Assembly: GCA_016209865.1 (NCBI GenBank) | Contig: JACQVL010000124.1 | Location: 1-6,005 of the forward strand | Direction of reading: 5' to 3' | DNA: 6,005 nucleotides | Source: Candidatus Latescibacterota bacterium | GTDB taxonomy: Bacteria; JAAXHH01; JACQVL01 | Shown: positions 2,733 through 6,005 of the stretch, piece by piece | Layout: each line of letters opens with the position of its first letter | Position numbering within the stretch: position 1 is the first letter of the stretch | The notes under the pieces: generated by a model | The model's input: only the letters and a program-made list of their open reading frames with translations | Databases searched by the model: none | What the model was told of the DNA's origin: nothing | Position numbers and translations under genes: made by a program

Positions 2733-2760
2733 TTGACACGATTGCCAATATCGTTATATT
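2733..2760 (+). promoter_or_regulatory. Sigma-70-type promoter driving the csp leader
   Basis: A perfect -35 TTGACA (2733-2738) is followed after 16 bp by TATATT (2755-2760), one mismatch from the TATAAT consensus. Transcription would start near 2766-2768. It is the best promoter in the window and sits in an AT-rich stretch just after the Gfo/Idh/MocA stop. The spacer contains a 9-bp palindrome ATTGCCAAT (2741-2749) nested inside ACGAT/ATCGT (2738-2742 and 2750-2754), which could be an operator. Confidence 0.75.
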
Positions 2761-2766
2761 GAAGAA

Positions 2767-2899
2767 AAGCTCGCGTCTCTTCTGTGTTTATTAGGATGTT
2801 TGGCATCTGATAAAGATCAGCAAAGACGACCAGCTTCGCGTCTTTGCTTTTTTTTTGCCTGTGGTCGATGAGGCTTCTCTCAATCTTAAGGGAAAGTAG
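2767..2899 (+). promoter_or_regulatory. Structured 5' leader of the cold-shock gene; possible attenuator
   Basis: An untranslated leader of about 145 nt separates the inferred start from the csp ATG, in line with the long, structured leaders known for cold-shock mRNAs. Three things are visible. A perfect 5-bp stem with a 4-nt loop lies at 2807-2820 (CTGATAAAGATCAG). A perfect intrinsic terminator lies at 2819-2856. A 5' segment (2774-2784, CGTCTCTTCTG) can pair at 9 of 11 positions with 2818-2828, the terminator's 5' arm. Pairing of that kind would be mutually exclusive with the terminator. Between the T-tract and the ribosome-binding site no second promoter is apparent. Either csp expression depends on terminator readthrough, or the roughly 90-nt terminated RNA is a small RNA in its own right. 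Confidence 0.5.
2819..2856 (+). terminator. Perfect intrinsic terminator inside the csp leader
   Basis: The stem is perfect: AGCAAAGACG (2819-2828) with CGTCTTTGCT (2839-2848), a 10-nt loop (2829-2838) and an unbroken run of nine T (2848-2856). It lies downstream of the strong promoter and upstream of the csp start codon. It may stop readthrough from the Gfo/Idh/MocA gene, end a short leader RNA, or act as an attenuator. Confidence 0.85.
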
Positions 2900-2911
2900 G
2901 TGATTCAAAGA

Positions 2912-3112
2912 ATGGTTCGAGGAACTGTGAAATGGTTCAACGAGCGTAAGGGCTACGGCTTTATCTCGCGTGAAGATGGCGATGATGTGTTCGTGCATTT
3001 TTCTGCGATTCAGGGTTCTGGCTTTAAAACCCTGAACGAAGGCGACGAAGTCCTGTTCGAGGTTACGCAAGGTCCGAAAGGATCGCAGGCGGCAAACGTC
3101 ACCAAGCCGTAA
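2912..3112 (+). CDS. csp: Cold-shock domain protein (CspA family)
   Basis: A 66-residue single cold-shock domain, the standard length for bacterial Csp proteins. It begins [10 protein letters not shown] and carries RNP1 as KGYGFI (about residues 13-18) and RNP2 as VFVHF (about 26-30), the aromatic patches that bind single-stranded RNA or DNA. Csp proteins act as RNA chaperones and several are transcription antiterminators. I chose the ATG at 2912 because MxxGTVKWFN is the invariant family start and AGGTG (2898-2902) sits 9 nt upstream. A GTG at 2900, inside that Shine-Dalgarno, would add four unlikely residues. Codon use is visibly less GC-rich than in the neighbours, which fits a highly expressed gene or a different origin. 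It is flanked by terminators on both sides, so it is a monocistronic unit. Confidence 0.95.
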
Positions 3113-3137
3113 CGTCCGACGGGTCGTGAACCACATG

Positions 3138-3171
3138 AAAGGGCAGGGTGAGTGATCATCCTGCCCTTTTT
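3138..3171 (+). terminator. Intrinsic terminator after csp
   Basis: AAAGGGCAGG (3138-3147) pairs perfectly with CCTGCCCTTT (3160-3169). The stem can extend inward to 14 pairs with one G-U, closing on GTGA (3152-3155), a GNRA-type tetraloop. The T-run at 3167-3171 follows the stem. It closes the csp transcript 25 nt after the stop and isolates the UxaA-like gene downstream. The A-run opposite the T-run could allow some activity on the other strand. Confidence 0.9.
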
Positions 3172-3281
3172 GCGTTTCAGGGGTGATTGAGGAAAGATTT
3201 TCGTTGACCCGCACGAGAAAATGCATCAGTTTTCGACAGCGACTCGTCATCGATCCGAATTCATGAAAGGAGCATAGAGCT
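3172..3281 (+). promoter_or_regulatory. Upstream region of the UxaA-like gene; promoter not clearly resolved
   Basis: Because a strong terminator ends just before it, this 110-nt gap should hold the promoter of the UxaA-like gene. TTGACC (3204-3209) is a candidate -35, but I see no good -10 at the right distance. Two TTTTCG segments (3198-3203 and 3230-3235) flank a GAGAAAAT (3214-3221) that either could pair with, giving alternative hairpins. AAAGGAG at 3266-3272 is a clear ribosome-binding site 9 nt before the ATG. Confidence 0.35.
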
Positions 3282-4832: not shown

Positions 4833-4868
4833 GAAGAGCGGTGATCGGTGGTCGGTTAAAACCAAAAT

Positions 4869-4893
4869 GGATTCCCGCTTTCGCGGGAATGAC
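4869..4893. repeat. ATTCCC-N8-GGGAAT hairpin repeat, copy 1
   Basis: ATTCCCGC (4871-4878) and GCGGGAAT (4883-4890) form a perfect 8-bp stem around a TTTC loop, within a 25-bp unit ending in GAC. The form ATTCCC-N8-GGGAAT is that of the neisserial dRS3 repeat, and closely similar units occur widely in unrelated genomes. A diverged copy in the same orientation lies at 5956-5987. Confidence 0.8.
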
Positions 4894-4905
4894 CCCGGAC
4901 TTCTC

Positions 4906-4933
4906 TCGTCACTCGTCACTTGTCACTCGTCAC
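4906..4933. repeat. Tandem heptamer array, four copies
   Basis: Four adjacent copies of TCGTCAC (third copy TTGTCAC) run from 4906 to 4933. Read on the minus strand the unit is GTGACGA, which contains TGA. Since 7 is not a multiple of 3, the array places TGA in all three minus-strand frames. The ABC gene stops at one of these. Confidence 0.9.
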
Positions 4934-5939
4934 TGTTTTTACCGACCACCGACCACCGATCACCCTCATACAAAAAGCACGCAGTCTCCTGTCGCGCTCC
5001 ATCGATCTTGTACAACGGCGGCGGCTGGATCGCGCACCCGTCCATCCGATGGGGACAACGCGGAGCGAACCGGCAGCCGGTCTGCGTGTGACTCTGCGCG
5101 TCTTCCTCAGAAGGCCACTCCACCTCCGTCTTCCATTTTTCTTTCGGGTCGGGCACCGGGATGGAGTTGATGAGCAACTGGACGTAGGGATGTTTCGGAT
5201 GCTCGATGACGACGACGGTCTCCCCGCGCTCGACCACGGAACCCTGGTAGAGGACGTGCATCGCATCGCTGATCTGGTACGCCGTGCTCAGGTCGTGCGT
5301 GATGTACAGGAACGAGACGTGCTGCTCATCCCGCAGGCGCACGATAATGTCTAAGATCATCGCCCGGAGCGATGCATCGACCATCGAGACCGGCTCGTCG
5401 GCCACGATCAGCCGGGGTTTTAGCAGGTACGCCCGGGCCATCATCAGCCTCTGGCGCTGGCCGCCGCTGAGCTGGTGCGGGTATTTCTCTAACACCTCCT
5501 CCCCTCGCATGCCGACGACCCGCAGCGCCTCCTCGATCAACTCCCGCGCGTCCGCTTTCGTGCCCGCCAGACGGAAGCGAGCGATGACGACCTCGAAGAC
5601 GCGCCGCACCCGGTAGAACGGGTTGTAGACCTCGTACGGGTCCTGGAACACCGCCTGCACCTTGCGCCGGTAGTCGAGACGGCGCGGGCCGGTCAGCCGG
5701 GCGATGTCCTGGCCTTTGTAGAGGATCTCCCCGGACGTGAGGGAAATGAAGCCTAAGATGGCGTTCGCTAAGGTCGTCTTCCCGCTTCCGCTCTCCCCGG
5801 CGATCGTCGTGATCGTGGCGGGTTGTTCGGGGATCGACAGACTGAAATCCTGCAACGCGACGACCGGCTCGCCGGAACGCCACATTCCGCTTCCGTAAAT
5901 TTTTGTTGCGTGGCGGATTTCTAAGAGAGGAGATCTCAT
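4923..5939 (-). CDS. Peptide/nickel-type (Opp/Dpp) ABC transporter ATP-binding protein
   Basis: A 338-residue ATPase subunit powering import of oligopeptides or similar small solutes at the inner face of the membrane. Visible are Walker A GESGSGKTT (48-56), Q-loop Gln99 in AVFQDPYEVYNP, signature LSGGQRQR (157-164), Walker B LIVADEP (177-183), D-loop SMVDAS (185-190) and H-loop His215. A C-terminal oligo_HPY extension follows, with the usual four cysteines (289, 295, 302, 321), which in mycobacterial relatives reportedly hold a 4Fe-4S cluster. The QDPY..NP form suggests the OppF/DppF side of the pair. I chose ATG at 5939 (MRSPLLEIRHATKIYG); a TTG at 5948 would add three residues. Neither has a strong Shine-Dalgarno. 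The family domain ends near residue 325; the last 13 residues and the stop are encoded by repeat sequence. Partner permease and binding-protein genes are not in the window. Confidence 0.92.
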   Translation of the reverse strand: MRSPLLEIRHATKIYGSGMWRSGEPVVALQDFSLSIPEQPATITTIAGESGSGKTTLANAILGFISLTSGEILYKGQDIARLTGPRRLDYRRKVQAVFQDPYEVYNPFYRVRRVFEVVIARFRLAGTKADARELIEEALRVVGMRGEEVLEKYPHQLSGGQRQRLMMARAYLLKPRLIVADEPVSMVDASLRAMILDIIVRLRDEQHVSFLYITHDLSTAYQISDAMHVLYQGSVVERGETVVVIEHPKHPYVQLLINSIPVPDPKEKWKTEVEWPSEEDAQSHTQTGCRFAPRCPHRMDGCAIQPPPLYKIDGARQETACFLYEGDRWSVVGKNSDE

Positions 5940-5955
5940 AAGGAGCAATCTACCC

Positions 5956-5987
5956 GGATTCCCACTCCCCGCTTTCGCGGGAATGAC
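5956..5987. repeat. ATTCCC...GGGAAT hairpin repeat, copy 2 with a 7-nt insertion
   Basis: This is the same unit and orientation as 4869-4893, but the space between ATTCCC (5958-5963) and GGGAAT (5979-5984) is 15 nt, not 8. The extra seven bases (ACTCCCC, 5964-5970) come before the shared GCTTTCGC core. CCCGC/GCGGG still pair around TTTC. It lies just upstream of the ABC gene start, so the gene is bracketed by direct copies. The remaining bases to the window end show no gene. Confidence 0.75.
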
Positions 5988-6005
5988 ACCCCCCTATCGT
6001 CCCCC

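Follow-up and report, generated by a model that had tools for sequence, protein, structure and literature searches.

A candidate transcription attenuator in the leader of a cold-shock protein gene from the Latescibacterota

INTRODUCTION

Both cold control and autoregulation by Csp proteins have been reported for the cspA gene of Escherichia coli. Proteins of the CspA family modulate intrinsic termination (PMC4347634; PMC9765468). E. coli CspA, CspC, CspE and CspD alter it at targets that include metY-rpsO, SgrS, tnaCAB, thiMD and gdx (Bae 2000; Morita 2022, PMC9765468), and a similar action is proposed for the locus analyzed here. In the E. coli Csp-termination literature we found no report that a csp gene has such a terminator in its own leader, and none of intrinsic terminators in csp leaders in the literature searched, mostly outside subscription journals. 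The Bacillus protein BsCspB binds the consensus d(GTCTTTG/C) (PMC7825780).

We have analyzed a stretch of 6005 bases (the window) from Candidatus Latescibacterota bacterium. It is one whole contig (G000:C74) of a 3.75-Mb draft genome that is ~83% complete. A sequence-only reading of the window had proposed that its csp gene is controlled by alternative folds of the leader. The features discussed are collected in Table 1.

RESULTS

The promoter, the terminator and the csp gene

The csp gene is flanked by genes for a Gfo/Idh/MocA-type oxidoreductase (stop codon at 2710) and an altronate/galactarate dehydratase. PF00313 spans residues 3–65 of its product (E = 2.4e-31), so that a single cold-shock domain covers the whole protein as in the CspA family, and it is the only stand-alone csp gene found in the ~83%-complete draft. 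Given its own downstream terminator, csp is probably transcribed as a single-gene unit.

Table 1. Features of the csp locus in the window
Feature	Position	Strand	Basis
Sigma-70-type promoter: TTGACA 2733–2738, 16-nt spacer, TATATT 2755–2760	2733–2760	+	11/12 match
5′ strand of the antiterminator, AAGCTCGCGTCT, where the transcript is predicted to begin	2767–2778	+	Minimum-energy fold; pairs with 2824–2836
Inner hairpin, inside the antiterminator	2782–2820	+	Predicted fold
Terminator 5′ arm AGCAAAGACG, common to terminator and antiterminator	2819–2828	+	Perfect stem with 2839–2848
Antiterminator 3′ side, arm and loop, AGACGACCAGCTT	2824–2836	+	Predicted fold
Terminator 3′ arm CGTCTTTGCT and T9 tract T2848–T2856	2839–2856	+	Hairpin −12.9 kcal/mol
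GTCTTTG, candidate Csp site in the terminator 3′ arm	2840–2846	+	Exact match to the published BsCspB consensus
Post-terminator leader, Shine-Dalgarno-like AGGTG 2896–2900	2857–2911	+	Conserved with L015
csp, 66 aa, single cold-shock domain	2912–3112 (ATG 2912)	+	Pfam CSD
Second intrinsic terminator, 3′ of csp	3138–3171	+	Fold of 3126–3175 = −26.3 kcal/mol, T5

The promoter and the terminator are beyond chance. A scan of the window finds no other promoter-like site, and no site with at least 11 of 12 matches arose when the 201-nt intergenic region was resampled 2000 times. The terminator stem (A2819–G2828 with C2839–T2848) has 10 perfect base pairs and a 10-nt loop (2829–2838), and a stem of nine with a tail of eight or nine T occurred in none of 3000 resamples. 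The hairpin was missed by the tool scan because this limits loops to 8 nt or fewer. The order of promoter, terminator and csp start codon is that of an attenuator. The sequence-only reading was thus right in describing a near-consensus promoter, a perfect 10-bp terminator with nine T and a csp gene with no second promoter found between terminator and gene. Its distance of about 90 nt holds when measured from the predicted transcript start (~2767) to the last T of the T-run. The first base of the stem lies 59 nt past the −10 element.

A search for a leader-peptide open reading frame in 2767–2911 gave just ATG TTT GGC ATC TGA, which is unconvincing, and leader-peptide attenuation was therefore rejected. 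No Rfam family matched the window at its gathering score. The SIB antitoxin RNA (RF00113) reached 24.4 bits (E = 0.16) against a gathering score of 56. The cspA thermoregulator (RF01766) reached 53.1 bits against 78, over 2858–3171, a segment that is mostly coding and starts past the terminator.

Elsewhere in the window there are several repeats. Imperfect palindromic intergenic repeats around CCCGCTTTCGCGGG occupy 4833–4970 and 5960–5990; their 21-mer TCCCGCTTTCGCGGGAATGAC has 62 exact copies in the genome and belongs to a REP/MITE-like family. An inverted repeat at 382–518 with arms TTTTGGATTTTAGATTTTGGATT, present in 46 genome copies at up to two mismatches, forms a second family. Between two genes, at 1684–1785, GC-rich GGCAGAGGAGCAGAGGGG units make up a long and imperfect palindrome, and the many microRNA-family matches found there were discarded as an artefact of this repeat.

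Predicted alternative folds of the leader

The predicted minimum-energy fold of 2767–2856 is an antiterminator, in which 2767–2771 pair with 2832–2836, 2773 with 2830, and 2774–2778 with 2824–2828. It is the preferred fold below about 60 °C, and the pairing of the 5′ strand with 2824–2836 is predicted up to 50 °C. The two folds compete in the calculation: taken as equilibrium values, transcription itself being a non-equilibrium process, the energies at 37 °C are −24.8 kcal/mol for the antiterminator and −22.6 kcal/mol for the terminator-constrained fold, a preference of ~2 kcal/mol that becomes ~3 kcal/mol at 10 °C, and the probability of the terminator climbs from 0.003 at 10–20 °C to 0.037 at 37 °C, reaching 0.38 at 60 °C. 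Folding at low and high temperature had been suggested in the sequence-only reading as a check; the antiterminator is indeed favored in the cold, and the shift over growth temperatures is small.

The echo of the terminator 3′ arm near the transcript start is present as described earlier, at 2769–2784. When the 5′ part of the leader is shuffled in the presence of the full hairpin, 2.3% of the shuffled sequences pair as much as the window (p = 0.023), but in the presence of the 5′ arm alone 49% do so (p = 0.49), a stricter test that the window fails; these p values, like the other shuffle values below, are nominal and come from several such tests. For this reason the window alone is suggestive of alternative folding and is not proof of it. 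The stability of the whole-leader fold is ordinary (z = −0.11).

Conservation within the phylum

The phylum is small, and our sample comprised 16 genomes. The order of promoter, terminator and csp is kept in families f1, f2 and f3 and before both csp paralogues, with the terminator 52–87 nt 5′ of the gene. TTGACA...TATATT/TATACT is kept among the aligned csp1 leaders. In leaders L015 and L016, from two other genera of the second family, the promoter, the GCAAAGAC...GTCTTTG terminator and parts of the post-terminator leader are all kept. GCAAAGAC is identical across the three genera, and the distance from T-run to ATG is 62–64 nt in all three leaders. L020, from the third family, has the promoter followed by a stronger hairpin with T9 and then csp. 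The second csp paralogue of the g3 species, with equivalents in g5, has a terminator at the same place, and the paralogue leaders have a conserved 5′ strand, TCTGTCTCCTGYGC, able to pair with the arm GCANGGATCAGA. The first csp copies of g3 have kept the promoter and lost the obvious terminator.

In L113 (p = 0.037), L125 (p = 0.020) and L126 (p = 0.005) the 5′ strand pairs with the terminator arm more than shuffled sequences do, and Fisher combination over eight leaders of the phylum gives p = 0.012. Taken singly, L015, L016 and L020 do not exceed their shuffles, and at 37 °C the terminator dominates at equilibrium in L015, L016, L020, L113 and L126. Neither L015 nor L016 conserves the inner hairpin. 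The exact 5′ echo of the window is absent from L015, its nearest homologue, and is kept in part (CGTCTTT) in L016. Loss of the echo had been named beforehand as counting against a switch, and since L015, L016 and L020 lack excess pairing and their terminator wins, it does so in part, as regards the exact sequence. The proposal of alternative leader folds nevertheless stands with moderate support, from the full-hairpin shuffles of the window and the combined value for the phylum; the test with the arm alone goes against it.

A helix that would join the 5′ end to the segment past the terminator is not significant either in the window (p = 0.86) or in the phylum combined (p = 0.40). In the paralogue leaders L114–L124 the 5′ strand GTCTCTGT is complementary also to post-terminator ACAGAGAC/ACAGGGAC, with G–U variation. 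This is a possible third helix, for which the shuffle test was null except, weakly, in L114.

A candidate Csp-binding heptamer

GTCTTTG lies at about −72 to −79 in 10 of the 15 csp1 leaders of the phylum, compared with none of 173 control regions. Seven related leaders without a terminator retain it at a similar distance from the start codon, and the g3 leaders look as if the Csp-like site had outlasted the terminator. In L008–L014, the seven leaders of the first csp copy in genus g3, the heptamer is placed inside a small hairpin, CACCG-TCTTTGY-CGGTG. It is absent from the csp leaders of the paralogue group and from all 92 csp leaders of other phyla. GTCTTT[GT] was rejected as a cross-phylum mark of csp leaders, as it is not enriched (1 of 92, against 7 of 173 controls). 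The 5′ strand of the window is pyrimidine-rich; that of the Nitrospirota leaders described below is GUUUUUG, or GUCUUUG in L198 and L200.

Recurrence in other phyla

The ordered layout of promoter (at least 9 of 12 matches), terminator and gene was found at 7 of 89 csp loci from many phyla, compared with a single case among 157 control genes (p = 0.004). Among the seven are loci deposited under the names Latescibacterota, Methylomirabilota and Nitrospirae. With the promoter ignored, a terminator is not commoner before csp (20 of 93) than before other genes (32 of 176), and terminator frequency alone was rejected as a mark of csp, the enrichment being seen solely for the ordered layout. Fisher combination of 5′-strand/arm pairing gives p = 7e-4 for seven leaders of other phyla and p = 8e-5 for all 15 leaders.

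The Nitrospirota csp leaders have in common AGTTTCAGAAGTTTTTG, followed by GGCCRCAAAGACTTTTAGCTTTGYGGCC-T6 and then TTCTGARRCTTTAG and AAGGAGGT. A sequence pattern taken from their 5′ part has matches in 27 of 198 genomes. Thirty pattern loci were retrieved, and csp lies directly downstream in 25 by automatic check and in L175 on inspection. A covariance model, R1, matches 22 of 61 sampled genomes, and 15 of the 18 divergent R1 loci checked precede csp. At L164 (G080:C1, near 297340) there is an element like that of the Nitrospirota csp leaders, with an intact terminator; csp was not found directly downstream.

In an alignment of 34 matches, the terminator together with the helix between GTTTCAGAA and post-terminator TTCTGARAC has 13 pairs changed on both sides (0 of 500 shuffles); this alignment was fitted to the tested structure, and an independent alignment made with MAFFT (A2) is in agreement. 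Pairing of AAGUUUUUG with CAAAGACUU, which comprises arm and loop, is possible in 88% of cells, compared with 45–67% when slid. Covariation of this antiterminator is weak because the segment barely varies: its score is reached by 9 of 500 shuffles, and there is one A–U to U–A flip, in three sequences. The terminator loop ACTT is conserved, though the terminator does not need it. The element is absent from Rfam, twelve csp loci having matched just a 5S rRNA and a tRNA. Conserved, covarying and outside Rfam, it is a candidate new RNA family that could be tested in a cultivable relative.

In the Nitrospirota element, as in the window, the 5′ strand is complementary to both arm and loop of the terminator and is followed by the terminator and csp, and the terminator 5′ arm with its next bases reads CAAAGAC in both. 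Unlike the window, the Nitrospirota element has a covarying helix from the 5′ end to the post-terminator region. R1 scores the window at 17.6 bits (E = 0.94, not significant) and has no matches in 15 genomes of its phylum, so the window leader was rejected as a member of the element. The two are analogous and homology is unproven, since R1 fails to detect the phylum of the window.

DISCUSSION

A proposed mechanism and its alternatives

Sequence comparison gives good support to attenuation in the csp leader, through the order kept in three families, the enrichment of the layout before csp and the covariation in Nitrospirota. On balance we lean towards a transcription attenuator under autogenous control by Csp, most likely with negative feedback. 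Polymerase would initiate at ~2767 on a leader of 145 nt, and in vivo would either stop at the intrinsic terminator, releasing an RNA of ~90 nt, or read through into csp. In the first outcome the terminator 5′ arm would pair with its own 3′ arm, and in the second with the pyrimidine-rich 5′ strand 2767–2778. We hypothesize that the input is most likely the Csp protein itself, as hinted at by the CspB-consensus heptamer in the terminator arm. Abundant free Csp would hold the 5′ strand, and possibly also GUCUUUG in the 3′ arm, and so shift the balance. Binding to the 5′ strand would favor termination and hence negative feedback, a sign that we infer from the earlier transcription of this strand. 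Once structured RNA titrates Csp away, e.g. following cold shock, the antiterminator would form and csp would be read. A second hypothetical input is temperature, hinted at by the calculated preference for the antiterminator in the cold, which is possible for any larger structure.

The terminator might instead be fixed and unregulated, lowering csp to a constant fraction, with the alternative fold incidental. The dominance of the terminator in the five homologous leaders, the lack of conservation of the exact echo and the ordinary global stability of the leader all speak for this. Yet a weaker promoter would suffice for such a purpose, while the layout persists from family to family and is found again in other phyla; the antiterminator test combined over 15 leaders and the retention of the unneeded Nitrospirota loop also argue against a fixed terminator, which we consider unlikely.

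If Csp acted instead on GUCUUUG of the 3′ arm the feedback would have the opposite sign, since the hairpin would be blocked and Csp would antiterminate its own gene. This is consistent with the exact BsCspB consensus, with its constant position in the 10 csp1 leaders that have it, including the seven that lack the terminator, and with the known antitermination by the CspA family (PMC4347634; PMC9765468). But the time between exposure of the 3′ arm and closure of the hairpin would be short, and the heptamer is missing from the paralogue group and from other phyla. It is also unusual for an abundant protein to be under positive feedback, and such an arrangement seems improbable.

Control of termination by an RNA thermometer alone, with no protein involved and with the antiterminator in the cold and the terminator in warmth, would fit the calculated climb in terminator probability, but the small change over growth temperatures, the tendency of energy extrapolation to favor any larger fold in the cold and the homologues in which the terminator already wins at 37 °C make it distinctly unlikely. 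Very unlikely is an independent small RNA (e.g. a Csp sponge) between promoter and terminator, with a csp promoter in 2857–2911: the 90-nt unit is self-contained and has the weak SIB_RNA match, but that match is below its gathering score, just one promoter was found in the window, the gap from terminator to csp is just 55 nt and relatives carry the unit before csp at narrow spacing.

For autogenous attenuation, the reading that we prefer, the recurrence of the layout across phyla suggests that an unrecognized RNA switch sets the amount of Csp protein. A tentative extension, possible rather than probable, is that such attenuators form a widespread class of autogenous switch in csp leaders of several phyla, with the GUYUUUG-like antiterminator strand as the Csp-binding site. 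The level of free Csp, and with it the load of misfolded RNA, would then directly set csp transcription.

Comparison with known systems

The E. coli cspA leader (RF01766), like the csp leader of the window, is long and structured. It works through refolding and translation and, unlike the window, uses no intrinsic terminator. Premature termination within or ahead of a csp gene is known from the 5′ regions of E. coli cspB and cspG, where it is Rho-dependent, in contrast to the hairpin and T-tract of the window (PMC7815308). Attenuators of the trp/TRAP and Bgl/Sac types likewise have mutually exclusive terminator and antiterminator with one common arm (PMC4347634). These respond to dedicated RNA-binding regulators, whereas the ligand proposed for the window would be encoded by the controlled gene itself. 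A terminator in a csp leader would provide a direct and testable link between the effect of Csp on termination and the control of its own gene.
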